A stretch of DNA of 64,000 nt. Source: Olleya sp. Bg11-27 (GTDB lineage: Bacteria > Bacteroidota > Bacteroidia > Flavobacteriales > Flavobacteriaceae). A model generated the notes under the pieces. It made no database searches. It was given only the letters and a program-made list of their open reading frames with translations, and was not told where the DNA came from. Location: contig NZ_CP025117.1 of NCBI RefSeq assembly GCF_002831645.1, positions 1,495,514-1,559,513 of the forward strand. The letters run 5' to 3'. Within the stretch, counting starts at the first letter, position 1. Each line of letters starts with the position of its first letter. The translations under genes were made by a program, and so were the position numbers. Of the stretch, positions 37,746 to 63,173 are shown piece by piece.

Positions 37746-38645
37746 ATGAATTATAAATCTTTATTAGCAGTTGTATTCGGAGTATGTTTTGCATCTCAAG
37801 CAGTTGCACAATCTAATGTTCTAAATGCTAAATCTCCAAAAGAGATTGGTGTAAGAACAGAAGAACAAATAGCGTTGGATAACGACAATCCTCTAGAATA
37901 CGGTTATGTTGATGATAGAGATATTATGTTTGCAAAAATGACTTGGGAAAAAGTTGTTTTAGATGAGCGTGTAAACTTTCCTTTATACTATCCAGTGGAT
38001 ACAAATAATATCGGAAAAGAAAGGCGTTCTTTATTTGATGTTTTAACTAAGGCTATAGATGAAGGTAACATAAAAGACGTGTATAACGATTCTTATTTTA
38101 CTGGAAAACGTACAAAAAAAGAGTTAGCTCAAATTAGAACGGCTGTAGATACTATGGATATTGGTTACGATCAGTTAAACGCTGATGGTTTTGTAGATCC
38201 AGAATATATTACAACAACTACTATTGCGTCTTATGATGTTTCTGCATACTTAATCAAAGGACTTTGGTATTTTGATAAACGTCAAGGAGAATTGAAGTAC
38301 AGATTATTAGGTTTAGCTCCTGCTGCGCCAGACGTTAACTATGTTAACTCTAACGATGAAGCAAACAAAGAGCCTATTCCTTTATTCTGGATTTTCTATC
38401 CGGATGCAAGAGATGTGTTGCATGAAGCTAAAGCGTTTAACGCTAAAAATAGTGCTATTCCTTTTTCTTTTGATCACATATTAAACTCTAGACGTTTTAA
38501 TAGCGTTATTTTTAAAGAAGAGAATGTATTTGGAGATCGTAAGGTTGAAGAGTATATTGCAGAAAATTCATTAATGCAGTTATTAGAATCTGAAAGAATT
38601 AAAGAAAAAATTAGAAACTTTGAATTAGACATGTGGTCTTATTAA
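37746..38645 (+). CDS. gldN: Gliding motility/type IX secretion ring protein GldN
   Basis: A 299-residue periplasmic protein with a signal peptide (residues 1-21, ending AVAQ). Conserved segments are VDDRDIMFAKMTWEKVVLDE, YFDKRQGELKYRLLGLAP, FWIFYPDARDVLHEAKAFN and the terminal NFELDMWSY. It joins GldK in the outer-membrane-associated ring of the type IX system. It is the last gene of the operon and is closed by a strong terminator. Confidence 0.95.
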   Translation: MNYKSLLAVVFGVCFASQAVAQSNVLNAKSPKEIGVRTEEQIALDNDNPLEYGYVDDRDIMFAKMTWEKVVLDERVNFPLYYPVDTNNIGKERRSLFDVLTKAIDEGNIKDVYNDSYFTGKRTKKELAQIRTAVDTMDIGYDQLNADGFVDPEYITTTTIASYDVSAYLIKGLWYFDKRQGELKYRLLGLAPAAPDVNYVNSNDEANKEPIPLFWIFYPDARDVLHEAKAFNAKNSAIPFSFDHILNSRRFNSVIFKEENVFGDRKVEEYIAENSLMQLLESERIKEKIRNFELDMWSY

Positions 38646-49602: not shown

Positions 49603-51177
49603 TTATTTAATAGCTTTAAAAAAGGAATCTATAAGGACTTTGGGTGATTTATCATGTTTTGTAATTTTGGGTATTTCCAAATCAATATTTAATAATTGAT
49701 AGACTGCCGTTTGAGCAGCTCTTACAGAATATTCGACAGTAAATACAACATCATCAGCGAGTTCTACAAATTGGCTTACAAAGGCTAAGTTTTTAGAGCT
49801 TTCAGGTACAGGTTTTGGTCTGTCGTTGTAAGCGCGTGGCATAAACATAGACGTTATATATGGCATTCTGCAAGGTACGCAAACAGCATCATCAAAAACA
49901 TTATCATCAAAGTTAAAGTGTCCTGCTAACTCTTTAAGGATGTCTTGTCCGTTACTTTCAACCATTGTTTTTGGAATAAAATCTCCAACACGATTCCCGT
50001 GTAACGCATAGCCCCAAAGGATATAGACATCATCCGGTTGATCGATAAAGTGTGGTTGATTATAAAGTACAACAGACATGAGCCAATTAGAATCCTTGAA
50101 AGTTACTAAACCTCCAGTTCCTGCTTCATTGCCAGTCATTTTCTCAATTTTATCAAAAAACTCAGATGATTTGAATGTTACTGTAAACGATTCCCAAAAA
50201 GATTCAGGAATACTACTATTAAAAGGTGCTGGATTTCCAAAATCAGGTCTTCCTTTTGCTAATTTTTCCCAAAGGGTCCATCCTTTACTTTCTACTTTTG
50301 TTTTTTTAACCGGGGCTTGTGTCATAGAGCCTATACTTGAAGCATCAACCATAGAGCCATTTTGGAAAATAACAATATCATCAGGGGTAACACTAACTTG
50401 TTTGGGACCCTCTTGGTTAATTACTGTAAGTGAAGTAACGGTGACTTTTCCATTTATATCTTCTACAACTATATCATCTACGGTAGTCGCTAGTTCAAAA
50501 TTAACACCTTTGTCTTTAAGCCAAGCTATTAACGGAAGCACTAAAGAGTCATACTGATTATAAATGGTTCTTTTAACCCCACCAAGTGTATTAATTCTTG
50601 GAAACTCATTCATAAAACGATGTAAATAGCGTTTAAATTCTACTGCACTATGCCAAGGTTCAAAAGCAAACGTGGTCTGCCACATGTACCAAAAGTTAGT
50701 GTTAAAAAAACCAGGTGATAACCAATCGGTGATTTTTGAGGTACCTAATTTTTCTTCTGATGCTTCAAGAAGTTTTAAAAACTCTAGTCTATCATGCATA
50801 TCAAAACCCATGGTAGAGGTGTCTACAATATGACAGTTTTTGTCTATTAAACGACCTTGCGAGTGTGCGATATGTTTTTTATTAAAAGCAATCGTTTCGT
50901 CTTTTACAGACATGCCTTTATTATTGATGGAAGGGATGTCTTTAAATAAGCCCCAAAAGCATTCATAAGCATCTGTGGTTAACATTCTACCTCCTCGAAG
51001 GGAATAACTCCCGTCATCAAGTCGCGCACCATCTAGGCAGCCTCCTAATGTTGGTAGTTTTTCAAAAACAGTAATTTGATGTCCAGGAATACCGCCATCA
51101 CGAATCATGAATACAGCTGCAGATAATGAGCCAAGTCCACCGCCTAAACAATACGCTTTAAAATTATTAGTTGTCAT
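49603..51177 (-). CDS. ohyA: Oleate hydratase 1 (FAD-dependent, short type)
   Basis: A 524-residue enzyme that adds water to the cis-9 double bond of oleate to give 10-hydroxystearate. The FAD motif is CLGGGLGSLSAAVFMIRDGG near residue 10. The family block RGGRMLTTDAYECFWGLFKD follows near residue 62. WHSAVEFKRYLHRFM and YITSMFMPRAYNDRP are further conserved blocks. The Glu of the well-studied RGGRE motif is Met here, and the protein lacks the long C-terminal extension of dimeric enzymes; both features fit the shorter Rhodococcus-like subgroup as I recall it. It has its own TGA-N6-TCA promoter box (51245-51256). Confidence 0.88.
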   Translation of the reverse strand: MTTNNFKAYCLGGGLGSLSAAVFMIRDGGIPGHQITVFEKLPTLGGCLDGARLDDGSYSLRGGRMLTTDAYECFWGLFKDIPSINNKGMSVKDETIAFNKKHIAHSQGRLIDKNCHIVDTSTMGFDMHDRLEFLKLLEASEEKLGTSKITDWLSPGFFNTNFWYMWQTTFAFEPWHSAVEFKRYLHRFMNEFPRINTLGGVKRTIYNQYDSLVLPLIAWLKDKGVNFELATTVDDIVVEDINGKVTVTSLTVINQEGPKQVSVTPDDIVIFQNGSMVDASSIGSMTQAPVKKTKVESKGWTLWEKLAKGRPDFGNPAPFNSSIPESFWESFTVTFKSSEFFDKIEKMTGNEAGTGGLVTFKDSNWLMSVVLYNQPHFIDQPDDVYILWGYALHGNRVGDFIPKTMVESNGQDILKELAGHFNFDDNVFDDAVCVPCRMPYITSMFMPRAYNDRPKPVPESSKNLAFVSQFVELADDVVFTVEYSVRAAQTAVYQLLNIDLEIPKITKHDKSPKVLIDSFFKAIK

Positions 51178-51213: not shown

Positions 51214-51256
51214 CAAAATTAGGAAGCGCTATGGGCTTTAGAAATGATGCAGGTCA
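51214..51256 (-). promoter_or_regulatory. Crp/Fnr-type box plus -7 element of oleate hydratase 1
   Basis: Read on the minus strand the box is TGACCTGCATCA (51245-51256) and the -7 element is TAATTTTG (51214-51221), an exact TAnnTTTG match. Box start to -7 start is 35 bases, identical to the seven other boxed promoters of the region. The -7 element lies 36 bases before the start codon. Confidence 0.75.
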
Positions 51257-51333
51257 GTAAGCGTATTAATTTAAAATTAAAGAGCAATACTATTTATATA
51301 TAGTGTTTTGGTCGTTAAATACTAGCTCTAAAG

Positions 51334-51376
51334 TGACCTAGGTCATTTTACCTTAAATAGTTACTGTTTACATTTA
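51334..51376 (+). promoter_or_regulatory. Crp/Fnr-type box plus -7 element of the 51.4-52.5 kb operon
   Basis: The perfect palindrome TGACCTAGGTCA is at 51334-51345 and TACATTTA (TAnnTTTG-like) starts exactly 35 bases later at 51369. If transcription starts about seven bases past the -7 centre, the palindrome is centred near -41, the class II position. Confidence 0.8.
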
Positions 51377-51396
51377 CTTTTTAAAACTTTATTGAT

Positions 51397-51855
51397 ATGA
51401 GCGATTTTAGAAACAGACCAAAAGATAATTTTATGCACGAAGCCACATGGGAACAATTATATGTGCTTACGGAGCATTGGCAATCCGATATTGAGTTTTA
51501 TAAACAGGATTTAAATTTTTTACATCATCTAATTGATAAATATTTTTTATACCTATCAAAAAAGGAAAATATTGATTTAGTACTTGAAATTGAAGTAAAC
51601 TTACTAGATGTAGAAAAACAATGTAACACATTATTGGAAAGGATACATAAGCATTTGCATCATTTAAGCGCGTTGGTAGATGATCCTTTTACATACGTTT
51701 CAGATAAGTTTAGAGATGAACACGAACAATTAGAGGACGATTTAACTCAGTTTTTAAAAGACTTCAGACAAAATAGAAAAGAGGTTTTTTCAATAACAGA
51801 ACATATGATTGGGGGAGAAGAATTAATCAAACAACTAAATGTTTTACATAAATAG
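51397..51855 (+). CDS. Small helical stress-region protein A, unknown function
   Basis: A 152-residue soluble protein, predicted almost entirely alpha-helical with coiled-coil stretches (EQLYVLTEHWQSDIEFYKQD; DEHEQLEDDLTQFLKDFRQN). It is rich in His, Glu, Leu and Lys, with no signal peptide and no catalytic motif. Its N-terminal pattern (MHE..W...L..W..DI.FYKQDL.FL..L..K) is repeated in the 128-residue protein encoded at 52579-52965, so the two appear related. It is the first gene of an operon headed by a perfect TGACCTAGGTCA box. I do not recognise a named family. Confidence 0.75.
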   Translation: MSDFRNRPKDNFMHEATWEQLYVLTEHWQSDIEFYKQDLNFLHHLIDKYFLYLSKKENIDLVLEIEVNLLDVEKQCNTLLERIHKHLHHLSALVDDPFTYVSDKFRDEHEQLEDDLTQFLKDFRQNRKEVFSITEHMIGGEELIKQLNVLHK

Positions 51856-51889
51856 CGTATTTAATTTTTAACCATTAAAAAGAATCCTA

Positions 51890-52108
51890 ATGAAAGACCT
51901 ACAACAAGTATTAACAGACATAACACAACTTACCGGAAATATCGAAACCAATTATCCTGAACTCTATCGCTCTTTAGATGAGAATCCTTTGACATTACCA
52001 ATGAGCAAACATCCACACATGGATAAAAAAGTAATGACGGACTATTTAGAAGGTTTGAAACAACTTTTAAATCATTATATTGAGGAAGAAAATAATAAAA
52101 AGCAATAG
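51890..52108 (+). CDS. Small acidic protein, unknown function
   Basis: A 72-residue protein, MKDLQQVLTDITQLTGNIET at the start and a charged ENNKKQ end. It is predicted to be helical with a Pro-rich centre (NPLTLPMSKHPHMDKK). No known domain is recognised. It lies 34 bases after the 152-residue gene and 17 before the ArsC-like gene, so it is very likely part of the same operon. Its coding status is supported by this packing and by the ATG spacing rather than by similarity. Confidence 0.6.
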   Translation: MKDLQQVLTDITQLTGNIETNYPELYRSLDENPLTLPMSKHPHMDKKVMTDYLEGLKQLLNHYIEEENNKKQ

Positions 52109-52125
52109 ATTTTAATAATCAAATT

Positions 52126-52491
52126 ATGGGAGAGATTGCAACATCAAATAGGCAGATTACAGTATACTATAGCTCAAAATCCGAAAGAGCAAAACAGGCA
52201 TTGGCCTATGCTAAAGCAGATGGCTTTAAGGTTGAAGAAATAGATATATTAAAAACAAAATTAACAGGCACACAACTTGTAGAATTGGCAGAACGGTTAC
52301 ATGTTGAGGTCGCAGCTCTTGTAAATCAAGAGAGTCCAGCCTATCAATCTAGTTTTGAACCGCATAACCTGTCAACCGATGATTGGATAAAAATGATACT
52401 ACACAATCCGCAAATCATGAAACAGCCAATTGCATTACATGGGGATAAAACCATTCTGGTAGACACACCAACAGATATTCTTAAAATATAA
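52126..52491 (+). CDS. ArsC/Spx-fold protein lacking the catalytic cysteine
   Basis: A 121-residue thioredoxin-like protein of the ArsC/YffB/Spx family. The first strand and helix read ITVYYSSKSERAKQALAYAK, where active relatives have a Cys after the first strand; here the aligned residue is Ser19, and no cysteine occurs in the whole protein. The C-terminal block NPQIMKQPIALHGDKTILVD retains the family's NPxxxxxPI layout. Reductase activity is therefore unlikely; binding to another protein, as Spx does with RNA polymerase, is one possibility. It is the third gene of the boxed operon. Confidence 0.75.
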   Translation: MGEIATSNRQITVYYSSKSERAKQALAYAKADGFKVEEIDILKTKLTGTQLVELAERLHVEVAALVNQESPAYQSSFEPHNLSTDDWIKMILHNPQIMKQPIALHGDKTILVDTPTDILKI

Positions 52492-52509
52492 ATCTGGTTT
52501 TTATCAGAC

Positions 52510-52552
52510 TGACCTAGGTCATTTCATATACGGTAGTAAAATATAACCTTTG
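52510..52552 (+). promoter_or_regulatory. Crp/Fnr-type box plus -7 element of the 52.6-54.2 kb operon
   Basis: The perfect palindrome TGACCTAGGTCA is at 52510-52521, and AACCTTTG (one mismatch to TAnnTTTG) starts exactly 35 bases later at 52545. It drives the 128-residue protein and the MgtC-like gene. Confidence 0.75.
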
Positions 52553-52578
52553 TGATATAATAAAAATAATTAATTATC

Positions 52579-52965
52579 ATGGAAAAAGAAATTATATACA
52601 ACTCAAACATGCACTTTGAGCACGAACAATGGAAAGGTGAATTGGCATTTTGGAAACAAGAGTTATTGTTTTTTAATAATAAATTAAGCGAACTAGTAAC
52701 GCGATGGACTAATAAAGATGTGTTGGCACAATTAGAGCATTATCAAAACGAATTTATTCTTCATGGTGGTGTTATTGAAGACCTACAAGAAACTATAGAA
52801 AAACACGAAACACGTATCGCAGCACAAAGCATAGAAGGCGAGGATGCAATAGATGTTCGTCTAGCAGAACAACATGTTGCGTTTAGAGATAAAATGGAAA
52901 CACAACGTGAGATTTACGCAGATCTTAAAAAAGAATTTTTCAGGTTTCTAGAAAAGTACATGTAA
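52579..52965 (+). CDS. Small helical stress-region protein B, unknown function
   Basis: A 128-residue soluble helical protein. NMHFEHEQWKGELAFWKQEL near the N-terminus parallels the N-terminal part of the 152-residue protein at 51397, and the C-terminus is Lys/Phe-rich (KKEFFRFLEKYM). Heptad-like spacing suggests a coiled-coil bundle. It has no cysteine, signal peptide or recognised domain. It lies downstream of its own perfect TGACCTAGGTCA promoter and six bases before the MgtC-like gene, with which it is surely co-transcribed. Confidence 0.75.
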   Translation: MEKEIIYNSNMHFEHEQWKGELAFWKQELLFFNNKLSELVTRWTNKDVLAQLEHYQNEFILHGGVIEDLQETIEKHETRIAAQSIEGEDAIDVRLAEQHVAFRDKMETQREIYADLKKEFFRFLEKYM

Positions 52966-52971
52966 TATTAA

Positions 52972-54246
52972 ATGCAAATACAAGAAGAGATAAATCAGCT
53001 CGTGGGATCTTATATTCTAGGAGTATTGATAAGCTTAGGGATTGGTCTTATACTTGGTCTAGAACGGGAGTATGATAAACTCAAAGAAGACAATGGTATA
53101 GCAGGTATAAGAACATTTCCTATAGTGACTATTCTTGGATTTACACTAGGTAATCTTACTACAATTTATACCGTATGGCTCTTAATTATAAGTTTAGGAG
53201 CCTTTATTTTGTTTTTAGCATTCAATCAATATGCTCAAAATAAAGAACTCCCTAGTCAAGATTTAACAACTAATTTAGCCTTAATAACAACCTTTGTATT
53301 AGGGGTAATGGTTTCGGCGGAATATTATAGAGATGCAGTCGCGACAGCAGTTATCATAGTTACATTACTATCATTAAAAACAAGGTTTCGCACAGTCATT
53401 CAAAACATTACTTCAATAGAGCTTTTTGCATTTATAAAATTCGCAATAATAGCCTTATTAATACTTCCTTTTCTACCAAACAAAACGTACGGACCAGATA
53501 ATTTATTAAACCCTTACGAGATTGGTTCGATAATAGTCATTGTGTCTTTCTTAAATTTTATCGGTTATTTCCTGGTTAAGTTTATTGGCTCAAAAAGAGG
53601 GATCATACTAACAGCCATACTTGGTGGGCTTATTTCTAGCACAGCAGTAGCCTGGAATTATGCATCTAGTAGTAAGGCCTCTCCAGAACTCTCCAAAAAA
53701 TATAGTGCAGGAATCATTGTAGCTTCGGCGATTATGTTTCCCAGATTAGCCTTTTTGGCCTATATTTTTAATAGCGCTATATTGGTTAATTTAATACTGC
53801 CATTTGGACTATTAACACTAGTTTGTATTGTAGCAACCTTATTATTAATGCGCAAGGACGACCCTAAACCAGATACCAATATAAAATTAGGTAATCCATT
53901 AAATATGTTAAATGCGATTGGATTTGGTGCCGTGTATGTCATCATCCTTTTTGCTGTTTATTATAGCAATCAATTTTTTGGAGAAAGTGGTCTATATTAT
54001 TCGGCCTTAATTGCGGGACTAGCAGATACAGATGCCATTACAATAAGTATGTCCAAATTTGCTTTAGATCAAGACAAACTAACACTAGCATCTTCCGTAA
54101 TCATTGCTGCAACCATCAGTAATATGTTAGTCAAATTAGGTATAACCCTATTTAAAGGCTCTAAAACTACAGGTAAACTTGTTGGTTATGCGTTTGGAAC
54201 CGTCATTTTAGTTGGTATTATTTACATTCTTATTATTAGAAGTTAA
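52972..54246 (+). CDS. MgtC/SapB-type membrane protein with DUF4010 domain
   Basis: A 424-residue integral membrane protein with about twelve hydrophobic helices. The N-terminal MgtC/SapB part contains IGLILGLEREYDKLKEDNGIAGIRTF, whose GLERE and GIRTF motifs are the family signature. The C-terminal DUF4010 part contains GLISSTAVAWNYA and GLADTDAITISMSK. MgtC proteins modulate magnesium homeostasis or ATP synthase under stress; the role of the DUF4010 fusion is not established. It is the second gene of a boxed operon. The structured intergenic element lies 22 bases downstream. Confidence 0.85.
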   Translation: MQIQEEINQLVGSYILGVLISLGIGLILGLEREYDKLKEDNGIAGIRTFPIVTILGFTLGNLTTIYTVWLLIISLGAFILFLAFNQYAQNKELPSQDLTTNLALITTFVLGVMVSAEYYRDAVATAVIIVTLLSLKTRFRTVIQNITSIELFAFIKFAIIALLILPFLPNKTYGPDNLLNPYEIGSIIVIVSFLNFIGYFLVKFIGSKRGIILTAILGGLISSTAVAWNYASSSKASPELSKKYSAGIIVASAIMFPRLAFLAYIFNSAILVNLILPFGLLTLVCIVATLLLMRKDDPKPDTNIKLGNPLNMLNAIGFGAVYVIILFAVYYSNQFFGESGLYYSALIAGLADTDAITISMSKFALDQDKLTLASSVIIAATISNMLVKLGITLFKGSKTTGKLVGYAFGTVILVGIIYILIIRS

Positions 54247-54267
54247 TTATATTTTAATAATTAAAAG

Positions 54268-54360
54268 TTGGGCGTGACCATAAAGGTCAGGCTTTTCGCT
54301 GCAATTCCTCGCACCTCCTGCGTCGGGCTGTGGGATTTTCACTGCAATCCTTCACGCAAA
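54268..54360 (+). repeat. Structured intergenic element, copy 2
   Basis: This 93-base element on the plus strand begins TTGGGCGTGACCATAAAGGT and ends TGCAATCCTTCACGCAAA. Its leading arm is a TGACC-ATAAA-GGTCA hairpin (54274-54288). Blocks shared with the minus strand of 8469-8561 include GGGCGT, ACCA, GGTC, GCT, an inner arm and a closing CACGC/TAACGC block, while the loop differs completely (GC-rich here, AT-rich there). It follows the MgtC-like gene, which has no other terminator. Confidence 0.55.
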
Positions 54361-54395
54361 TTCACCCTTTTTAATAGCTTTTTTTTGCATCAAGT

Positions 54396-54438
54396 TGACC
54401 TAGGTCAGTGCAAGTGTTCTTTTAGAAAAGTAATTTTA
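54396..54438 (+). promoter_or_regulatory. Crp/Fnr-type box plus -7 element of the DUF5661 gene
   Basis: The perfect palindrome TGACCTAGGTCA is at 54396-54407 (preceded by T, giving TTGAC-N4-GTCA), and TAATTTTA starts exactly 35 bases later at 54431. It leaves a leader of about 50 bases before the ATG at 54495. Confidence 0.8.
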
Positions 54439-54494
54439 TGCTATAAGTTTTGATAGCCATTTTATTGGGATTCTGTCAAATAAAGCACAATACA

Positions 54495-54761
54495 ATGAAA
54501 AAAGTAAACACACAACAAGCAAAAGAGATTGGAGATCGTCTAGGTATCCAATGGAAGGATATTCAATTAGATGAATTTACAAAAGGAATAAATGTCGAGT
54601 TTGAACATGGAACAAGATATCCAGAAACCAATGTTACTAATAACGATAAAGCTTTAACAGGAAAAATAGCTTGGGCGCATTTAAAAGAGTTTCCTGATTA
54701 CTATACCCGTTTAGAAAAAATGGAAAATGAAGCAGAAGCATATTGGAGTGAAAAGGAATAA
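54495..54761 (+). CDS. DUF5661 family protein
   Basis: An 88-residue soluble protein with the DUF5661 pattern: AKEIGDRLGIQWKDIQLDEF, GINVEFEHGTRYPETNVTNN and KIAWAHLKEFPDYYTRLEKM. The family occurs widely, often near stress or phage-like genes, and its role is unknown. A longer frame starting at 54450 is rejected because it begins near the predicted transcript start; the ATG at 54495 is the natural start. A TGATTTAAGTCA sequence overlaps the region just after its stop codon. Confidence 0.85.
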   Translation: MKKVNTQQAKEIGDRLGIQWKDIQLDEFTKGINVEFEHGTRYPETNVTNNDKALTGKIAWAHLKEFPDYYTRLEKMENEAEAYWSEKE

Positions 54762-54763
54762 AC

Positions 54764-54775
54764 TGATTTAAGTCA
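54764..54775 (+). promoter_or_regulatory. Secondary, imperfect Crp/Fnr-type box
   Basis: TGATTTAAGTCA lies 24 bases (centre to centre) upstream of the main box of the oleate hydratase 2 promoter. It has no -7 element at the 35-base spacing and may be an accessory site. Confidence 0.4.
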
Positions 54776-54787
54776 GTTTAGGCAGGC

Positions 54788-54830
54788 TGACGCAGGTCAG
54801 TGTAGTAATCAACATAACATTCTAATTTTG
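54788..54830 (+). promoter_or_regulatory. Crp/Fnr-type box plus -7 element of the oleate hydratase 2 operon
   Basis: TGACGCAGGTCA is at 54788-54799, and an exact TAnnTTTG match, TAATTTTG, starts 35 bases later at 54823. The promoter serves the four-gene unit from oleate hydratase 2 to HdeD. Confidence 0.8.
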
Positions 54831-54917
54831 AAGTATTAATAAATAGTATGAGTAAGAGGTTCTTTTTGACACTTAAACAAAGAAGCTTTTTAATTTAACA
54901 AGACAAATAGACTTATT

Positions 54918-56519
54918 ATGAACACAAATAACAAAGACAAAAAAGCATATTTTATAGGGGGAGGGATTGGCTCTTTATCTGGAGCAGCATTTTTAATTCG
55001 TGATGGTGGCTTCGCAGGTAATAATATCACGGTCTACGAAAGTTTACCAGTATTAGGAGGTAGTTTAGATGCCGGAGGTAATCCCGAAGACGGCTACACC
55101 TTGCGTGGCTCCCGTATGTTTACATTAAATATTTACGAGTGCACGTGGGAGTTGTTTAAATCCATTCCATCACTTTCAGATCCTAACACATCTGTAACCG
55201 AAGAAACCATAGCCTTTAATAACAAAGTAAAATCACATTCTAAAGCACGTCTAATAGATAAAAACCGCGCAATTGTAGACTCATCTAAATTGGGGTTTTC
55301 AATGTCGGACCGCACAGAGCTTCTTAAGCTAAGTGAAGCAAGCGAAGAAAAATTAGGTAATAGTGCGATTTACGATTGGTTTTCGCCTTCATTTTTCGAA
55401 ACTAATTTCTGGTTTATGTGGCGTACAAGTTTTGCATTTTCACCTTGGCATAGTGCGGTAGAGTTTAAGCGATATTTACATCGTTTTATGCAAGAGTTTC
55501 CTAATGTAGAAACAATGACAGGTGTTAAACGTACCGTTTATAATCAGTACGACTCTATGATTTTACCATTAAAAGTTTGGTTAAAATCTCATGGTGTTAA
55601 TTTCAAAACAGGAAGTACAGTTACTGATATAGACACAACGTATGCTTTGGATCCAAAAACAGAAACCGAAAAAGTAGTTGTAAAAAAACTAATGTATGAT
55701 ACGGCAGGTCATTCTGAAACTGTAACAATTAATGAGGACGATTTAGTTTTCTATCAAAATGGATCAATGACAGATGCTTCTAGTTATGGGTCGATGACAA
55801 GTGCTCCAAAACATTTCACAAAAAAAGACAGTCAAGGTTGGGTGTTATGGGAGAAATTAGCAAGTAGATATCCTGGATTTGGTAGACCAGAAGTGTTTAA
55901 TACCAATATCGCAGAATCATTTTGGGAATCGTTTACTGTCACTTTAAAAGACACGGTGTTTTTTGATCAAATGGAACAATTTTCTGGTAACAAAGCTGGA
56001 ACAGGAAGTCAAGTAACTCTTAAGGATTCTAATTGGTTTATGAGTTTTTCATTAAATGAACAGCCTCATTATAAAGACCAACCAGATCATGTGCAAGTCT
56101 TTTTTACCTATGGATTACATCCAGACCGCGTGGGTAACTTTGTAGGTAAGCCCATGACAGAATGTTCTGGAGAAGACATTCTGAGAGAGCTTTGTGGGCA
56201 CTTAAAATTTGATTACGATATTGTATTTGCAAATGCAATCTGTATTCCATGCAGGATGCCATACATTACTAGTATGTTTATGCCACGTTTAAAAACAGAC
56301 AGACCACTTCCTGTGCCTAAAAACTCTAAAAATTTAGCTTTTATCAGTCAGTTTGTAGAGATTCCTGATGATGTTGTTTTTACAGTAGAGTATTCGGTTA
56401 GAGCAGCACAAATGGCAGTATATCAATTACTAGATATCGATCTTGAAATTCCGCCAATCACAAAATTTGATAAAACACTTAAAGTGGAACTTCAAACAGT
56501 TGCTAAAGCATTCCACTAA
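54918..56519 (+). CDS. ohyA: Oleate hydratase 2 (FAD-dependent, short type)
   Basis: A 533-residue paralogue of the enzyme at 49603. It has FIGGGIGSLSGAAFLIRDGG at the FAD site and then LRGSRMFTLNIYECTWELFK, so the first block reads RGSRM where the other two copies have RGGRM. WHSAVEFKRYLHRFMQEF is identical or nearly so to copy 1, as is MPYITSMFMPRLKTDRP. Copies 1 and 2 are clearly closer to each other than to copy 3. It is the first gene of an operon continuing into DUF1269, a lipoprotein and HdeD, controlled by the box at 54788. Confidence 0.88.
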   Translation: MNTNNKDKKAYFIGGGIGSLSGAAFLIRDGGFAGNNITVYESLPVLGGSLDAGGNPEDGYTLRGSRMFTLNIYECTWELFKSIPSLSDPNTSVTEETIAFNNKVKSHSKARLIDKNRAIVDSSKLGFSMSDRTELLKLSEASEEKLGNSAIYDWFSPSFFETNFWFMWRTSFAFSPWHSAVEFKRYLHRFMQEFPNVETMTGVKRTVYNQYDSMILPLKVWLKSHGVNFKTGSTVTDIDTTYALDPKTETEKVVVKKLMYDTAGHSETVTINEDDLVFYQNGSMTDASSYGSMTSAPKHFTKKDSQGWVLWEKLASRYPGFGRPEVFNTNIAESFWESFTVTLKDTVFFDQMEQFSGNKAGTGSQVTLKDSNWFMSFSLNEQPHYKDQPDHVQVFFTYGLHPDRVGNFVGKPMTECSGEDILRELCGHLKFDYDIVFANAICIPCRMPYITSMFMPRLKTDRPLPVPKNSKNLAFISQFVEIPDDVVFTVEYSVRAAQMAVYQLLDIDLEIPPITKFDKTLKVELQTVAKAFH

Positions 56520-56547
56520 ACAAATATTAATTTTAAAATCTATAAAA

Positions 56548-57366
56548 ATGGCAAATATTATTGTTGTTCCGTTTAAGGAAGAAAGTAAAGCTATTGAAGC
56601 TTTACATAGAATTAAAGAATTGGATGCCTATGGAGATATCACGCTGTATGAGCATATGATGATTCGTAAAAAAGATAACAAGCAATTCGAGATCTTAAAA
56701 AATCAAACCGATGGAGAAGGTTGGAGGTTGTTTACTGGTATGGCTCTAGGTGGGCTTGCAGGTGCTTTAGTAGGGTCTTTAGGATTTATCATTGGATTAT
56801 ATACAGGAACTGCAGTAGGTGCAGTTTGGGATGCTAGTCGGTATGACTTTGAAGCAGAGTTTCTTAAAAAGGTAAGTAAAAAAATGGCTGTCGGTACTAT
56901 TGCAATTGTTGCAGAAGTAGCAGAAGATAGTTCCGTATTTGTAGACAAAGCACTTAATGGACTATCCTCAGAAATTATTAGAAGTGAAGCTGGTATAGAG
57001 TTCGATGATTATGTAGATGAGCAAGTTGAAAATTTTGAAGATAGTATTGAAGACGAACGTCAAAAACTTAGAAAAGCAACAGCTCATGAAAAAGACACGA
57101 TTAAAGCTAAGATTGCCGATTTAAAGGCAAAACGAAAAGCGCATATCGTAGCGTTGGAAGCTAAAAGAAAAGCAACACTGAATAAGATTAAAAGTGACAC
57201 TAAATCTAGAATTCACAAACTAGAAACACGCTTGGATGGTTTTGAACAATCTGTGAGCGATGCATACGCTCAGGCTAGAAAAAATAGACTCAGTAAAAAA
57301 ATAAAAAAGGAAGAAGAAAAGTTATACCAATTGCATAGTGCAATAGGTGAGGATATTGTGGATTAA
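56548..57366 (+). CDS. DUF1269-like protein with glycine zipper and coiled coil
   Basis: A 272-residue protein. The N-terminal 50 residues (ANIIVVPFKEESKAIEALHR) form an alpha-beta domain as in DUF1269. A Gly/Ala-rich hydrophobic hairpin follows (TGMALGGLAGALVGSLGFII, GLYTGTAVGAVW), a glycine-zipper membrane element. The last 120 residues are a highly charged coiled coil (KAKIADLKAKRKAHIVALEAK). Membrane attachment by the zipper is likely. The role is unknown; related proteins occur in stress loci. A longer frame overlapping oleate hydratase 2 is rejected in favour of the ATG at 56548, 28 bases after that gene. Confidence 0.75.
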   Translation: MANIIVVPFKEESKAIEALHRIKELDAYGDITLYEHMMIRKKDNKQFEILKNQTDGEGWRLFTGMALGGLAGALVGSLGFIIGLYTGTAVGAVWDASRYDFEAEFLKKVSKKMAVGTIAIVAEVAEDSSVFVDKALNGLSSEIIRSEAGIEFDDYVDEQVENFEDSIEDERQKLRKATAHEKDTIKAKIADLKAKRKAHIVALEAKRKATLNKIKSDTKSRIHKLETRLDGFEQSVSDAYAQARKNRLSKKIKKEEEKLYQLHSAIGEDIVD

Positions 57367-57408
57367 TAACCAATAAAAAACTTAGTAATTAACTTAAATA
57401 ATTTAGAT

Positions 57409-57909
57409 ATGAAAGCAAAAATTTTAGCCTTAGCTGTAATCGTTTTTATGGCAGGAAGTATATTAATTGGTTGCGGGCAAGCCTCTAAACAAGATGCTAA
57501 ATCTGTTAAAGAGGATGCAAAAGTACTTGGTAACGATCTTAAAAAAGGAGCAGTAGATACCAGTAAAGATATTAAAATGACTGTAAATGAGAATTGGAAA
57601 AAGTTTGAAAAGACATCTCAGTCTGCTATTACAGCAACAGATGCTCAAATTAAAACATGGAGAACTAAAATGGAGTCGGCAGGTAAAGCAGAAAAAGAAA
57701 AGCTAACGATAGCTTTAAATCAATTAGAACAAAAAAACGAAGCACTTAAAAATAAATTAGCCGAAAGGGGTAAAGAATTTAAAGATGGTGTCATTTCTTT
57801 TAATGAAACGACCATGGCTAATGAACAGAAATTTGAACGCGAATTTACGCATGATATGGACGAGATAGGGGCTGCTTTAAAAGACCTTTTTAAAGATAAT
57901 GTTGATTAA
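57409..57909 (+). CDS. Coiled-coil stress-type lipoprotein
   Basis: A 166-residue lipoprotein. The signal sequence ends in LIGC with Cys22 lipidated. The mature part is a Lys/Glu/Ala-rich coiled coil (GQASKQDAKSVKEDAKVLGN; EKLTIALNQLEQKNEALKNK) without cysteine or enzyme motif. It resembles small stress-induced lipoproteins found beside DUF1269 and BON genes. It lies 42 bases after the DUF1269 gene in the same direction and is probably co-transcribed. It could tether the envelope or bind the neighbouring membrane proteins. Confidence 0.75.
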   Translation: MKAKILALAVIVFMAGSILIGCGQASKQDAKSVKEDAKVLGNDLKKGAVDTSKDIKMTVNENWKKFEKTSQSAITATDAQIKTWRTKMESAGKAEKEKLTIALNQLEQKNEALKNKLAERGKEFKDGVISFNETTMANEQKFEREFTHDMDEIGAALKDLFKDNVD

Positions 57910-57929
57910 TAAATTTAAATTATAACATT

Positions 57930-58493
57930 ATGGCAACTACAATTTTAAGTTCCACACAATCCACAGTAAAAAATTGGTGGATAACGTTTTTAATAGGTGT
58001 TCTATACATTATCGCCGGGGTTTGGGTTTTTCAAACACCAGTAGCGAGTTATGTCTCTTTAAGTATAATTTTTAGTGTATTCATTTTTATATCAGGAGGC
58101 TCACAAATTGTGTTCTCTATTTCTAATAGACACGAGATAAGTAGTTGGGGTTGGTATTTGGCAGGTGGTATTCTGGATCTTATTATAGGGCTACTATTAA
58201 TAATGCATCCATTAATGACTATGGCAATTCTGCCTTTTTATATTGGTTTCTGGTTATTGTTTCAGGGGTTTATGGCTATTGGATTATCATTTCAGATTAA
58301 AACATTTGGAATCCTATCTTGGGGTTGGTTATTGTTTTTGGGATGTCTAATAATACTCTTTTCGTTTCTGCTATTAGCTAATCCAATAATTGCAGGGTTA
58401 AGTATTGTATACATGACCGCTCTGGCATTTATTTCTGCAGGTATTTTTAGAATCGCTTTAGCATTCAATTTAAAAAATCAAAATCACAATTAA
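57930..58493 (+). CDS. HdeD-family membrane protein
   Basis: A 187-residue protein with six hydrophobic helices arranged as two repeats. The HdeD layout is seen in WWITFLIGVLYIIAGVWVFQ, WGWYLAGGILDLIIGLLLIM and GWLLFLGCLIILFSFLLLAN. In enterobacteria HdeD contributes to acid resistance at high cell density; in other bacteria it is a general membrane stress protein. It is the last gene of the oleate hydratase 2 operon, 20 bases after the lipoprotein gene. Confidence 0.85.
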   Translation: MATTILSSTQSTVKNWWITFLIGVLYIIAGVWVFQTPVASYVSLSIIFSVFIFISGGSQIVFSISNRHEISSWGWYLAGGILDLIIGLLLIMHPLMTMAILPFYIGFWLLFQGFMAIGLSFQIKTFGILSWGWLLFLGCLIILFSFLLLANPIIAGLSIVYMTALAFISAGIFRIALAFNLKNQNHN

Positions 58494-58628
58494 AACATTG
58501 TAAAGCATTGCTGTAACTGTAAATGCGTGGTAGTTTTAGTATTTGTTAATAGGTCCGAATAGTATAACTAATTTGAAGAAGACGACTAACAGTTACTGCT
58601 TTGCTTTTTAATTATTATAAACAAAGTT

Positions 58629-60221
58629 ATGAGTAAAACAAAAAATAAAAATCCAGAAGATGCTAAAGTTTATCTTATTGGAAGCGGAATAGCATCTCTG
58701 GCAAGTGCAGTTTATCTAGTAAAAGATGCGGGTGTACAAGGTAAGAATATTCATATTTTAGAAAAAGATAATATCTTAGGAGGTGCTCTAGATGGTGCAG
58801 GAGATAAAGAAGAAGGTTTTGTAGTAAGAGGTGGTAGAATGCACGAAGCGCATTATACATGTTATTGGGATTTGTTATCTAATATTCCGTCTTATGAAGA
58901 TCCCAATGTTTCTGTTAAAGACGAATCGTTTGAATTTAATAACCGATTTGTATCCAATGGGCAAGCAAGACTTTTAAAAGAAGGTAAAATTATGGATGTG
59001 TCGTCTTATGGATTATCTATAAAACAACAAGCGGAATTTTTAAAGTTGATATTCGCTTCAGAGAAATCGTTAGGAAATAAAAGAATCGAAGATTGGTTTG
59101 ATCAATCGTTTTTTGAAACTAACTTTTGGTACATCTGGTCTACGATGTTTGCTTTTCAAAAATGGAGTAGCGTAGTAGAAATGAGACGCTATATGAAACG
59201 CTTTATTCATTTAATTGATGGTTTAAAAAAGTTAGGAGGAGTTATGCGCACCAAGTACAATCAATACCATTCTGTAGTTATTCCTTTAAAAAATTATTTA
59301 AAAGATTATGGTGTAAATTTTGATGTGGGTCACGAAGTTGTTGATATTGATTTCAATTTGTCTTCAGATAAAAAAACAGCAACCGTTATTCACTTAAAAG
59401 ATAAAAACGAAATTGTTTTGGGAGCAAACGATTACGTCTTTATCACCAACGGTTCTATAACAGAAAGTACCGATAATGGTGCCTGGGAAAGACCTGCAAA
59501 ACTAAAAGGAATTGAAGCGTCTGGGTCTTGGCAATTATGGAAAACACTAGCAAAAAAAGATAAGGCTTTTGGTAATCCTGATCCCTTTTGTGATAACATC
59601 GATTTGCAAAAATGGTACTCTTTTACAGCAACATTAAAGGATAGTACGTTCCATGATTATATGGAGAATTTTTCAGGAAATGTTGACGGTACGGGTGGTT
59701 TGGTAACTATGACAGATTCTAATTGGTTAATGTCTATTGTCATTGCGCGTCAACCTCATTTTCCAAACCAACCGGAAGATGTTAAAATATTTTGGGGGTA
59801 TGGCTTATATCCAGACAGAAAAGGAAACTACGTTAATAAGACGATGGCAGAATGTACTGGTAGAGAAATATTAGAAGAATTGTGGTATCATTTAAAAGTC
59901 CAAGATATAATGAGTCCTGTTGTACAAGCAGGAAAGGTAAACTGTATCCCAACAGCAATGCCTTATATTGATAGTTTATTTATGCCAAGAAAAATTGGAG
60001 ATAGACCAAAAGTCTTACCAAAAGGAGCTACTAACTTTGCTTTTTTAGGACAATTTTCTGAGGTGCCAAAAGATGTTGTGTTTACTGTAGAATATTCTGT
60101 AAGAACAGCACAAACTGCTGTTTTTGGTTTATTTGAAACCGATAAAAAAGTACTGCCAGTTTATGACTCTATACACAGTCCAAAAGCATTATTAACTGCT
60201 GTAAAATCTATTAGCGGTTAA
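58629..60221 (+). CDS. ohyA: Oleate hydratase 3 (divergent paralogue)
   Basis: A 530-residue paralogue. The FAD motif is LIGSGIASLASAVYLVKDAG. The family block reads RGGRMHEAHYTCYWDLLSNI, one residue shorter here than in copies 1 and 2. WSSVVEMRRYMKRFI replaces their WHSAVEFKRYLHRFM. The C-terminal block AMPYIDSLFMPRKIGDRP is conserved. Its divergence suggests an older duplication or a different substrate, such as another unsaturated fatty acid. Unlike the other two copies it has no TGA-N6-TCA box in its 135-base upstream gap. It is followed by the DUF2238 gene after 59 bases. Confidence 0.85.
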   Translation: MSKTKNKNPEDAKVYLIGSGIASLASAVYLVKDAGVQGKNIHILEKDNILGGALDGAGDKEEGFVVRGGRMHEAHYTCYWDLLSNIPSYEDPNVSVKDESFEFNNRFVSNGQARLLKEGKIMDVSSYGLSIKQQAEFLKLIFASEKSLGNKRIEDWFDQSFFETNFWYIWSTMFAFQKWSSVVEMRRYMKRFIHLIDGLKKLGGVMRTKYNQYHSVVIPLKNYLKDYGVNFDVGHEVVDIDFNLSSDKKTATVIHLKDKNEIVLGANDYVFITNGSITESTDNGAWERPAKLKGIEASGSWQLWKTLAKKDKAFGNPDPFCDNIDLQKWYSFTATLKDSTFHDYMENFSGNVDGTGGLVTMTDSNWLMSIVIARQPHFPNQPEDVKIFWGYGLYPDRKGNYVNKTMAECTGREILEELWYHLKVQDIMSPVVQAGKVNCIPTAMPYIDSLFMPRKIGDRPKVLPKGATNFAFLGQFSEVPKDVVFTVEYSVRTAQTAVFGLFETDKKVLPVYDSIHSPKALLTAVKSISG

Positions 60222-60280
60222 CGGATAGTAACTCTAAGAGGTGATAATTTTATTGGCGATTATTAAAATATTTTTTTTAA

Positions 60281-60919
60281 ATGAAATTACAAAGCAGTGT
60301 TGTAACTGTCATCGGACATAAGCTTTTTTGGATTAGTATGTTCTTTGGTCTCATTTGGGCAAATGCGCTCATAGGTACTACGGATCTTAAAAATTGGCTT
60401 ATAGAAAATACGTTAACAGTTTTCGCGCTGCTTTTTTTAGTCTTTACATACACTAAGTATCGTTTTAGTAACACTAGTTATGTTTTAATTTGTGTTTTTC
60501 TATGCCTGTACGTCTATGGTTCTAAATATACTTATGCCCAAAACTTGTTTGGTTATTGGTTACAAGAACTGTTTCATACTTCAAGAAATAATTATGACAG
60601 AATAGTACATTTTAGTTTTGGCGCATTACTCTATTATCCTTTGCAGGACTGTCTTTCTAATGGACTTAAAATATCAAAAGACTTAGCCTTAAGATTACCC
60701 GTTTTAATCATTTTATCGGCAAGTGCATTGTATGAGATTTTAGAATGGCTAGTTGCAGATGTTTTTTTTGTAGAACAAGGATTATCATATCTGGGAACGC
60801 AAGGCGATATCTGGGATTCTCAAAAAGATATGGGACTTGCCTTTTTAGGGGTTGTATTGGTGGCTGTCTGTTTTTATTTATATTCAATATTGAAAAATAG
60901 AAAAAAAAGACAAAACTGA
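60281..60919 (+). CDS. DUF2238 membrane protein (YjdF-like)
   Basis: A 212-residue integral membrane protein with six to seven hydrophobic helices. Family motifs are YDRIVHFSFGALLYYPLQD, YEILEWLVADVF and GTQGDIWDSQKDMGLAFLG. Enterobacterial YjdF belongs here; the function is unknown. The stop codon TGA at 60917-60919 is also the first three bases of the Crp/Fnr-type box for dps, so the downstream promoter is embedded in this gene's end. Confidence 0.8.
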   Translation: MKLQSSVVTVIGHKLFWISMFFGLIWANALIGTTDLKNWLIENTLTVFALLFLVFTYTKYRFSNTSYVLICVFLCLYVYGSKYTYAQNLFGYWLQELFHTSRNNYDRIVHFSFGALLYYPLQDCLSNGLKISKDLALRLPVLIILSASALYEILEWLVADVFFVEQGLSYLGTQGDIWDSQKDMGLAFLGVVLVAVCFYLYSILKNRKKRQN

Positions 60920-60959
60920 CCTAAGTCATTACCAGTGTTTAAGACATCTAATACCTTTA
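60917..60959 (+). promoter_or_regulatory. Crp/Fnr-type box plus -7 element of dps
   Basis: TGACCTAAGTCA is at 60917-60928, overlapping the stop codon of the preceding gene, and TACCTTTA starts exactly 35 bases later at 60952. The leader to the dps ATG is about 20 bases. Confidence 0.8.
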
Positions 60960-60986
60960 CTTAATAATTAATTAAATTCTACAAAG

Positions 60987-61463
60987 ATGAAAACACCAAA
61001 CATAGGCATTTCAGCAGAAAACAGACAAGCTATAGCAGATCAACTATCTAAAATATTAGCAGACGAATTTGTATTGTATTCTAAAACTTTAAATTTTCAT
61101 TGGAATGTTGAAGGACCAGATTTTCATTCTGTACACCTGTACCTTGAAACATTATATGAAGCACAACAGGAGGTTGTCGATACGGTAGCAGAAAAAATAA
61201 GAATGCTAGGTCATTATGTACCTGCGACATTAGAAAAATATTCACAATTAACGCATCTTACTGAAAAAGTAAAAGGTAAAAATGATAGCCAAAGCATCTT
61301 CGCAGAATTGTTAGAAGATCATGAAAGTATTATTGTTTTTATTAGAGAAGAAATAAAACCTATTGCAGACAAATGGCAAGCCGATGGGATTAGTGATTAC
61401 ATTACAGGGCTTATGGAGCAGCACGAAAAAACAGCTTGGATGTTAAGATCACATTTAAAATAA
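60987..61463 (+). CDS. dps: Dps-family DNA protection/ferritin-like protein
   Basis: A 158-residue Dps mini-ferritin. It forms a 12-mer that oxidises and stores iron with H2O2 and protects DNA in starvation or oxidative stress. The intersubunit ferroxidase residues are in place: His38 in LNFHWNVEGPDFHSVH, His50 twelve residues later, Glu54, Asp65 and Glu69 in VVDTVAEKIRMLG. The N-terminus is short and not Lys-rich, so DNA binding is probably weak. It is a single-gene unit with its own boxed promoter and terminator. Confidence 0.93.
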   Translation: MKTPNIGISAENRQAIADQLSKILADEFVLYSKTLNFHWNVEGPDFHSVHLYLETLYEAQQEVVDTVAEKIRMLGHYVPATLEKYSQLTHLTEKVKGKNDSQSIFAELLEDHESIIVFIREEIKPIADKWQADGISDYITGLMEQHEKTAWMLRSHLK

Positions 61464-61495
61464 GTTAGTCAATTATTAGTTAAAGTGACCAATTT

Positions 61496-61532
61496 AAACC
61501 CAAGTAGCTACACGGCTGTTTGGGTTTTTTTT
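61496..61532 (+). terminator. Terminator after dps
   Basis: AAACCCAA (61496-61503) and TTGGGTTT (61520-61527) flank an inner GTAGC/GCTGT stem, followed by a run of T residues. Confidence 0.85.
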
Positions 61533-61596
61533 ATGAGCAAACGTTTTAAGGCATAAAATGATTTGTATTGTTAAATTTTAAAAATAAAATCAAGAC

Positions 61597-61639
61597 TGAT
61601 GTAGATCAGTGTCAGAAGGTTATAGTCGTAATATCTTTG
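61597..61639 (+). promoter_or_regulatory. Crp/Fnr-type box plus -7 element of BON gene 1
   Basis: TGATGTAGATCA is at 61597-61608, and an exact TAnnTTTG match, TATCTTTG, starts exactly 35 bases later at 61632. The leader to the ATG is about 30 bases. Confidence 0.8.
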
Positions 61640-61675
61640 ATATATATTAATTGTTTAATTTAAATCATAGAAATT

Positions 61676-62329
61676 ATGAGAACAGATTTAAGTATTAAAG
61701 TAGACATCTTAGACGAATTAGAATGGCAACCAAGTATTGACGAAACTCAAATTGGAGTTGTTGTAAAAGATGGAATTGTAACACTAACAGGAACTGTAGA
61801 TAGTTATGTTAAAAAACGTGAAGCAGAAAAGGCTGCTAAAAGTGTTGTAGGTGTTAAGGCTGTAGCCGAAGAGATAGAAGTGCAATACGGTGAGACGTCC
61901 CACAAATCGGATACCGAAATTGCTACAGCAGCTGTCAATGCATTAAAATGGAATATTTCTGTCCCTTCTAACAAAATCGAGGTTAAAGTTGAAGATGGTT
62001 GGGTGTATTTAAGTGGTGATGTTATGTGGGATTTTGAAAAAAATGCAGCTAAAAAAGCAGTTGAAAACTTGCAAAGTGTAAAATATGTAGTGAATAATAT
62101 TGCGTTAAAAAACACAGTGAGAGCGGAAGACATTAAAGACAAAATTAAAAAAGCATTCGAGCGTTCTGCAGATATAGATGCTAAGGATATTACAGTTAAA
62201 GCCGAAGGTCACAATATTAAATTGACCGGTAAAGTGCATACATTAAAAGAAAAAGACGATGCTAGACGAACCGCTTTTTATGCACCGGGAGTTTGGAGTG
62301 TAGAAAATGAGTTAGAAGTAGAGTATTAA
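61676..62329 (+). CDS. Triple BON-domain protein 1
   Basis: A 217-residue soluble protein made of three BON domains in tandem (about residues 3-68, 77-145 and 146-217). The glycine-centred strands repeat as GIVTLTGTVDSYVKKREAEK, GWVYLSGDVMWDFEKNAAKK and HNIKLTGKVHTLKEKDDARR. BON domains bind phospholipid or hydrophobic ligands, but no signal peptide or lipobox is present, so this form is cytosolic. It is closely related to the next gene and is a tandem duplicate. Triple-BON proteins are common in stress regulons of other bacteria. Confidence 0.88.
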   Translation: MRTDLSIKVDILDELEWQPSIDETQIGVVVKDGIVTLTGTVDSYVKKREAEKAAKSVVGVKAVAEEIEVQYGETSHKSDTEIATAAVNALKWNISVPSNKIEVKVEDGWVYLSGDVMWDFEKNAAKKAVENLQSVKYVVNNIALKNTVRAEDIKDKIKKAFERSADIDAKDITVKAEGHNIKLTGKVHTLKEKDDARRTAFYAPGVWSVENELEVEY

Positions 62330-62378
62330 ATCTTTTTTAAATCTATAAGAAACAATAATTAGGTTGTCTTATAAGAAA

Positions 62379-62418
62379 TCACCCTAACACAATACCATGT
62401 GTTAGGGTGATTTTTTTT
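62379..62418 (+). terminator. Terminator after BON gene 1
   Basis: TCACCCTAACAC (62379-62390) and GTGTTAGGGTGA (62401-62412) form a perfect 12-bp stem with a ten-base loop, followed by a T run. Confidence 0.9.
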
Positions 62419-62423
62419 GAGAC

Positions 62424-62466
62424 TGACTTAGGTCAGTATGTAATATAATTTAACGTAGTACATTTA
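62424..62466 (+). promoter_or_regulatory. Crp/Fnr-type box plus -7 element of BON gene 2
   Basis: TGACTTAGGTCA is at 62424-62435 and TACATTTA starts 35 bases later at 62459. The box begins just past the terminator of BON gene 1. A damaged second copy (TGACTTAGGCA) lies at 62470-62480, on the predicted transcript start. Confidence 0.75.
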
Positions 62467-62504: not shown

Positions 62505-63173
62505 ATGAAAACAGATTTTGAATTAAAAAAGAATGTTTTAGAAGAGTTAGCGTGGCTACCAAATATAGATGAAACTCAAATAGGTGTCACTGTAAACCAT
62601 GGTGTTGTAACACTTACGGGAGAGGTTAATGAGTTACCGAAAAAAATGGCAATTGAAGATGCGGTTAAGCGTCTCTCTGGTGTAAAAGCTGTAGCAGAGG
62701 CAATTACCGTAAAATATAGTAGTAGCGATAAGCAATCTGATATAGAGATTGCAAAAGCGGCAATAAATGCTTTGGAATGGAATGCCTCTGTACCTTCAGA
62801 AGCCATTATTGTTGAGGTGGAAGACGGGAGTATTTATTTAACGGGAGAATTAGAATGGCCTTATCAAAAAAGTTTTGCAAAAAGAACTATCGAACATTTA
62901 TATGGTGTAAAAGAAGTTGTTAATAATATCCATCTAAAGCCAAAACCAACACCAAGTAATGTCGAGCATCTAATTCACAAAGCGTTTACACGTTCGGCAA
63001 ATATTGATGCTAAAAATATTAAAGTGGCGGTCAATGATCATGAGTTAACATTAAGCGGGACAGTGCATTCTATTAAGGAAAAAGATGATGCCGAAATTGC
63101 AGCATATAATACACCAGGCATAAATAATGTGATCAATCAATTAAAAGTGGACTATTATCCAATGTATTTATAA
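62505..63173 (+). CDS. Triple BON-domain protein 2
   Basis: A 222-residue cytosolic protein with three BON domains, a duplicate of the preceding gene (both begin M.TD...K...LEEL.W.P.IDETQIGV). Repeats are GVVTLTGEVNELPKKMAIED, GSIYLTGELEWPYQKSFAKR and HELTLSGTVHSIKEKDDAEI. It ends 21 bases before a 3-hydroxyacyl-CoA dehydrogenase gene and is probably co-transcribed with it, placing that enzyme under the same box. Confidence 0.88.
   Translation: MKTDFELKKNVLEELAWLPNIDETQIGVTVNHGVVTLTGEVNELPKKMAIEDAVKRLSGVKAVAEAITVKYSSSDKQSDIEIAKAAINALEWNASVPSEAIIVEVEDGSIYLTGELEWPYQKSFAKRTIEHLYGVKEVVNNIHLKPKPTPSNVEHLIHKAFTRSANIDAKNIKVAVNDHELTLSGTVHSIKEKDDAEIAAYNTPGINNVINQLKVDYYPMYL

Follow-up and report, generated by a model that had tools for sequence, protein, structure and literature searches.

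A palindromic promoter code and a candidate receiver-Crp activator in a putative survival gene island of Olleya sp. Bg11-27

The stretch of DNA analysed here, called the window, comprises 64,000 nucleotides of the flavobacterium Olleya sp. Bg11-27 (positions 1495514-1559513 of its one-contig, 4.31-Mb genome). Within 11 kb near the window end, eight promoters carry a 12-base palindrome in front of a -7 box at constant distance. Judged from comparative sequence evidence, these palindromes are probably class II activator sites of sigma-A-type promoters that bind a dimeric activator of the Crp type, and the best candidate for this activator is R1, a response regulator encoded 10 kb beyond the window end (we put the probability of this reading at about 0.78). 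The sites, their spacing, the gene island that contains them, the domain architecture and monophyly of R1, and the co-occurrence of R1 with the motif were computed from the genomes.

Promoter geometry in the window and the genome

All eight palindromes lie at the coordinates and on the strands given in the original prediction, and the distance from palindrome start to box start is exactly 35 bases in 8 of 8 cases, composed of the 12-mer and a gap of 23. The sequence patterns proposed along with them held for most sites. The box TAnnTTTR fits seven of the eight, the exception being the box of site 52510 (AACCTTTG, 5 of 6 scored positions), and six palindromes agree perfectly with the consensus TGAYNTAGRTCA on one strand or both, whereas one mismatch has to be allowed for those at 51245 and 54788. 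In the window, the strict pattern TGAYNNNNRTCA + 23 + TAnnTTTR is matched eight times: by seven of the sites and, at 38273, by a sequence within a 299-aa open reading frame (ORF). In 200 simulations under an order-2 Markov null model of the window as a whole, the mean was 0.025 strict matches and the maximum one. The claim that the first 49 kb contain no such box is true for promoters: the sole exact match to the 12-mer consensus in that part (7569) lies within a 334-aa ORF and has no -7 box, and the best match before 51 kb of the site model described below has an E of 0.2. The target genes (oleate hydratases 1 and 2, Dps, two BON proteins, MgtC-DUF4010, DUF5661, and helical proteins) had also been named correctly.

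In the whole genome, TGACNNNNGTCA N22-24 TANNTTTR has six matches on both strands, every one with a gap of 23; five are in the window and one is at 2938499. The reversed pattern, used as control, has five matches; at gap 23, all five come from the units of a single tandem repeat (near 2267 kb), and gap 22 gives none. This repeat (approximately 2267273-2268047), the source of the control matches, has a period near 105 bp and at least five copies among those listed. A loose pattern with one mismatch allowed was noisy (86 matches versus 45 for the control). The palindromes are strongly clustered: a 31-kb island (approximately 1546-1577 kb) holds 8 of the 37 TGACNNNNGTCA palindromes of the genome (binomial 2e-10) and 7 of the 10 occurrences of TGACYTARGTCA (binomial 1e-13). 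Past the window, the island has further palindromes at 1564536, 1568649, and 1568713, each with a -7 box that deviates at one position, and at 1574447 and 1576605. The predicted regulon is coherent, but it is not confined to 11 kb; it reaches approximately 1,577 kb, outside the window, and also includes at least one exact site in another part of the genome.

A site model trained on 40 sites with an R1-type core (defined below) from other genomes was run on the Olleya genome, where the best 150 of 7831 first-look candidates were scored. All eight sites are among the 16 best matches, and of the 17 best (E <= 0.037), 11 fall into the island. This test is independent in sequence, but not in descent, because the training set includes the relatives' promoters of the same genes. 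Six of the top 17 lie outside the island. The match at 2938496 precedes genes for a DcaP porin, an aspartate-alanine-exchanger-like protein, and an aminotransferase-fold protein. Judged by eye, 1371360 precedes a gene for a CBS-like protein, 2872328 small genes, one of them resembling an island protein, and 1233446 small lipoprotein-like genes, and 2027539 and 793267 are within ORFs. The operon behind the distal TGACCTAGGTCA promoter (genome positions 2937162-2938418 and downstream, minus strand), which starts with the DcaP-like porin gene, is perhaps an energy-saving decarboxylation operon.

R1 and its co-occurrence with the site core

Past the window end, the island also encodes a patatin-like protein, a 924-aa multi-PAS histidine kinase with HisKA and HATPase_c domains, and R1 (1569742-1570812, minus strand), whose gene overlaps the end of the kinase gene. 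R1 is a 356-aa response regulator that combines a receiver (PF00072 Response_reg, 97.9 bits), a cNMP-type domain (PF00027 cNMP_binding, 76.4 bits, cut-off 27.5), and a Crp-type helix-turn-helix domain (PF13545 HTH_Crp_2, 52.4 bits, cut-off 27; PF00325, 23 bits, cut-off 21). Each of these domains is a known Pfam family, and the genome has 15 PF00027 matches. The candidate regulator is a response regulator with Crp-type output and an adjacent kinase gene, not an ordinary Crp/Fnr protein. Another island gene beyond the window (1563734-1564510, minus strand) codes for an extracytoplasmic function (ECF)-type sigma factor (TIGR02937, 46.0 bits, cut-off 42.9) and is preceded by a palindrome of the R1 type whose -7 box has one mismatch.

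The comparison set comprised 199 genomes of Flavobacteriaceae. Relatives of R1 (E <= 1e-40) are present in 86 of them and form two groups by identity to R1, one at 57-100% (the R1 clade, 12 genomes including that of Olleya) and one at no more than 48%. In a tree of 49 proteins, 15 R1 proteins are monophyletic (support 100/98). They stem from 15 neighbourhoods: 12 are from the holder genomes, and the others are the named loci of Flavobacterium sp. 7A, an uncultured Winogradskyella, and W. thalassocola (at least three named loci were among the matches listed). A kinase-like ORF is found within 3 kb of R1 in 15 of 15 loci, and both the receiver aspartate D52 and the recognition-helix residues E318, T319, A320, I321, and R322 are unchanged in 12 R1 proteins.

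The motif follows this clade. The exact site TGACCTAGGTCA + 23 + TAnnTTTR occurs in 9 of the 12 R1 holders versus 1 of 187 non-holders (p 2e-12), and the TGACYTARGTCA version with gap 23 and TAnnTTTR in 10 of 12 versus 8 of 187. Among the matches listed, gap 23 accounts for 22 of 24 in R1 holders and 8 of 22 in other genomes; the reversed control has eight matches in eight genomes, none of them an R1 holder, versus 46 listed for the motif.

In the 15 R1 neighbourhoods, which contain 428 palindrome strands, 116 cases of TGAYNNNNRTCA have TAnnTTTR at gap 23, whereas no other gap between 5 and 44 accounts for more than four. The sites are two-fold symmetric, as recognition by the Crp/Fnr family requires. 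The base preceding them is A or C in 95% and the base following them is T in 91%, and 111 of the 116 have an ORF start between -60 and +260 nt from the end of the -7 box (median 28 nt). The core TGA[CT][CTG][TC][AG][AGC][AG]TCA is present at 47 of the 116 sites (7 in the Olleya genome, 40 elsewhere) and at 1 of 77 sites in 19 neighbourhoods of receiver-Crp genes from genomes without R1 (p 1e-11). YtxH promoters from 10 genomes keep the distance between palindrome and box constant although the spacer is only 36% identical; the identity of the palindrome, which is partly fixed by the search itself, is 74%, and that of the -7 box, which is not so fixed, is 77%.

The gap of 23 is real, but it is not unique to the predicted regulon. 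Two further islands of the Olleya genome have the same geometry, one around R2 (2392-2411 kb), a second receiver-Crp protein (2393974-2395023), and one around a stand-alone Crp/Fnr-type protein (3344-3393 kb). The latter, Fnr-like protein (3393463-3394170) adjoins genes that by eye look like those for cbb3 oxidase, cydAB, and hemN. The R2 island, with sites of the TGAT type, contains genes for a 389-aa PAS kinase and, by eye, patatin-, Usp-, and DnaJ-like proteins and an ECF-like protein (2404743-2405513, minus strand) resembling the sigma factor near R1. Spacing as a mark that defines the regulon was rejected, TGAC-N4-GTCA + 23 + TAnnTTTG being found in many Flavobacteriaceae genomes. TGACNNNNGTCA and TANNTTTG match at some gap of 10-38 in 156 of the 199 genomes (mostly at gap 23 among the matches listed), and their reversed control also matches many genomes (five versus five in the Olleya genome). 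Gap 23 is common to other Crp/Fnr-type sites in Flavobacteriaceae, and it is the CTAG-like core that tracks R1.

Rival readers of the palindromes

The sites might instead be read mainly by the Fnr-like protein or R2, which we regard as unlikely. Identical promoter geometry in their islands, E..IR residues common to the recognition helices of R1, R2, and the Fnr-like protein, and numerous AT-core sites inside the R1 islands agree with this view. However, a receiver-Crp protein no more than 48% identical to R1 is present in 74 of the 187 genomes without R1, and the exact CTAG-core site in only one of the 187. The R1-like core is also rare (1 of 77 sites) near such less similar proteins, and the strict sites in the R2 and Fnr-like islands of Olleya have TGAT half-sites and AT-rich centres. 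Less probable still is that the reader is some other DNA-binding protein linked to the island, for example the ECF-type sigma factor, and that R1 is a mere neighbour. Although co-inheritance would produce the same association and, by eye, a similar sigma-factor gene is found near R1 in several relatives, a symmetric TGAC-N4-GTCA at -41.5 suits a Crp-type dimer, ECF sigma factors generally recognise asymmetric promoter boxes, and the downstream box is of the general sigma-A type known in a flavobacterium from the portion of PMC9723704 used here. That the palindromes are repressor operators or a shared repeat is barely credible, for although a palindrome alone does not tell activation from repression, the spacing is constant to the base at 116 sites, and diverged YtxH spacers between two conserved boxes are unlike a copied repeat.

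Several observations nevertheless weigh against R1 as the reader of these sites. Over the whole genome, TGACNNNNGTCA shows no enrichment (37 occurrences versus 56 for the reversed control); only its clustering and spacing are unusual, not its abundance. The R1-like core pattern was picked after the sites had been seen, and it misses 69 of the 116 sites near R1; many of these have AT-rich cores as in the R2 and Fnr-like islands, so that a second regulator may serve part of the island. An AT-core site, TGATAATAATCA, precedes the patatin, kinase, and R1 genes themselves. Their counterparts in another genome (G168) are preceded by the same site, which suggests that R1 could be under the control of the Fnr-like protein or R2. 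Three of the 12 R1 holders (G108, G056, and G054) have no exact strict site; in G108, TGACCTAGGTCA is present only with weak -7 boxes. One genome without R1 (G111) has such a site. The co-occurrence does not separate R1 from other island-linked genes. With respect to the signal, the top matches of the first PAS domain of the kinase to solved structures are a multi-sensor kinase, DosP, and FixL, but only eight of 13 aligned first PAS domains have the haem-ligand histidine of FixL at the corresponding position (two further kinases were unaligned), which makes oxygen sensing unsure. Haem-based oxygen sensing as a general property was dropped, as the histidine is missing in 5 of the 13 aligned kinases.

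Genes behind the sites, proposed mechanism and known systems

Site 1 (TGACCTGCATCA, 51245-51256; with its -7 box TAATTTTG, 51214-51256, minus strand; model match with E 5e-4 in the window) precedes the ORF of oleate hydratase 1 (49603-51177, minus strand, 524 aa; NCBIfam oleate hydratase above cut-off). All other sites are on the plus strand and, like the genes behind them, are given in this orientation; they too were found by the model. Site 2 (TGACCTAGGTCA, box TACATTTA; 51334-51376) precedes a gene for a 152-aa protein (51397-51855) with an all-helical predicted structure (pLDDT 80), which belongs to no Pfam or NCBIfam family and had no Foldseek match in the PDB at E <= 0.001. Genes for a 72-aa protein (51890-52108) and an Spx/ArsC-like protein (52126-52491) presumably form one operon with it. 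Site 3 (TGACCTAGGTCA, box AACCTTTG with one mismatch; 52510-52552) is followed by ORFs for a 128-aa protein (52579-52965), which has a single sub-threshold Pfam match, and, as the second gene downstream, the MgtC-DUF4010 protein (52972-54246; Pfam scan). Family-less small proteins (51397-51855, 52579-52965, and 1563174-1563713 in genome coordinates) are repeatedly encoded next to the sites, and tblastn found relatives of them in further neighbourhoods of R1 and R2.

Site 4 (TGACCTAGGTCA, box TAATTTTA; 54396-54438) precedes the gene for the DUF5661 protein (about 54495-54761), and site 5 (TGACGCAGGTCA, box TAATTTTG; 54788-54830) that for oleate hydratase 2 (54918-56519, 533 aa, Pfam MCRA). Between the two lies an extra palindrome, TGATTTAAGTCA (54764-54775), which has no strict -7 box at gap 23 and on which the model also matches. 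It sits in a 20-nt perfect inverted repeat (AAACTGATTTAAGTCAGTTT, 54759-54778), 24 bp centre-to-centre upstream of site 5, and this repeat may be either a terminator or a tandem site. A third oleate hydratase-like gene (58629-60221, judged by eye), which brings the number of such genes within 11 kb to three, has no site directly upstream and may belong to an operon that starts at site 5. Site 6 (TGACCTAAGTCA, box TACCTTTA; 60917-60959), the top genome-wide match of the relatives-only model, precedes a gene for a Dps-like protein (60987-61463, 158 aa, Pfam Ferritin). Sites 7 (TGATGTAGATCA, box TATCTTTG; 61597-61639) and 8 (TGACTTAGGTCA, box TACATTTA; 62424-62466) are followed by the ORFs of BON protein 1 (61676-62329) and BON protein 2 (62505-63173), each with three BON stretches in the Pfam scan.

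A Pfam scan of 109 proteins downstream of the sites near R1 (25 of 69 families listed; counts without a control gene set) returned Usp (11), YtxH (9), BON (8), patatin (6), histidine kinase domains (5), HSP20 and carboxymuconolactone decarboxylase (4 each), PPDK and outer-membrane efflux (3 each), and MCRA oleate hydratase, PfkB, erythromycin esterase, and ferritin/Dps (2 each). The original prediction spoke of a stress regulon. Its coherence is backed by the comparative evidence, but the gene content may fit survival under low oxygen or energy limitation better, and "stress" may be read in this sense. Fish mucus is another possible signal, as oleate hydratases of Flavobacterium psychrophilum were upregulated under fish mucus according to the same portion of PMC9723704.

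The predicted Crp/Fnr-type recognition and class II placement are backed by the co-occurrence with R1, the 116 gap-23 sites, the core, and the relatives-only model. The class II position of CRP is -41.5. With a gap of 23 and the TAnnTTTG box at -12 to -5, its position in F. psychrophilum (PMC9723704, in the part used here), the palindrome centre would fall at exactly this point. For R1 itself we infer binding, phosphorylation, activation, and signal from sequence. The PAS kinase would respond to a drop in oxygen, or to some related cue of redox or energy state, by phosphorylating the R1 receiver. The Crp-type output would then dimerise, bind [AC]TGAC-CTAG-GTCAT-like sites, contact RNA polymerase, and switch on the survival genes of the island, among them those for Dps, BON proteins, oleate hydratases, the MgtC-like protein, and the ECF-type sigma factor. 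Residues that we take to be the cAMP-contact positions are changed in R1 in an alignment with CRP of Mycobacterium tuberculosis, so that the switch is likely phosphorylation and not cAMP. Low oxygen is the leading, albeit unproven, candidate for the signal. More tentatively, and at slightly less than even odds, this fused switch could control a flavobacterial dormancy-type programme, in which R1, R2, and the Fnr-like protein share one geometry, owe their specificity to the bases at the centre of the palindrome, and form a cascade onto R1 through AT-core sites.

To our knowledge, few activator sites have been mapped in Bacteroidota, and the present analysis names, for a putative survival regulon of this phylum, a concrete and testable candidate for the regulator, the DNA code it would read, and the genes it would control. 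Within the open PMC literature, the regulon, its code, and its link to R1 seem not to have been described: a search for TGACCTAGGTCA returned only papers on unrelated subjects, as far as their titles tell, and none of the papers listed in other searches deals by title with an R1-type regulator or regulon. If the proposed mechanism is true, oleate hydratases, Dps, and BON proteins would be under one signal, R1 would be a natural example of phosphorylation-driven DNA binding by a Crp-type domain, and flavobacterial transcript starts would become predictable to the base.

The gene content (Usp, BON, Hsp20, PPDK, PfkB, Dps, and oleate hydratase) resembles the DosR, OsdR, and lxa low-oxygen regulons. 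In the sections of PMC6127331 used here, the Burkholderia lxa locus contains Usp, BON, heat-shock, and phosphofructokinase genes, is suggested to be under FixLJ/FixK control, and is compared with DosR. Like FixL-FixJ-FixK and lxa, the R1 island has a PAS kinase, a receiver, and a Crp/Fnr-type activator, and R1 and its kinase might be FixL-FixJ-FixK folded into two proteins. Unlike in those systems, the receiver and the Crp-type domain are fused, the sites have a CTAG-like core, the phylum is a different one, and oxygen sensing is only putative. The OsdR/DevR regulons comprise Usp and PPDK genes, with Usp genes near the regulator, and are under two-component control, as stated in the portion of PMC5069765 used here. 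Mycobacterial DosR/DevR and Streptomyces OsdR share with R1 the two-component control and the combination of Usp and pyruvate phosphate dikinase, but their DNA sites differ, and the output of R1 is HTH_Crp. The output domain of DevR/DosR is not of the Crp type. The class II activators of the Crp/Fnr family (CRP, FNR, FixK2, and DNR) resemble R1 in the cNMP-type and HTH_Crp domains, the two-fold TGA..TCA half-sites, and the predicted centre at -41.5. R1 differs from them in its N-terminal receiver and in the outer base of its site, which is A or C, whereas it is T in FNR sites.

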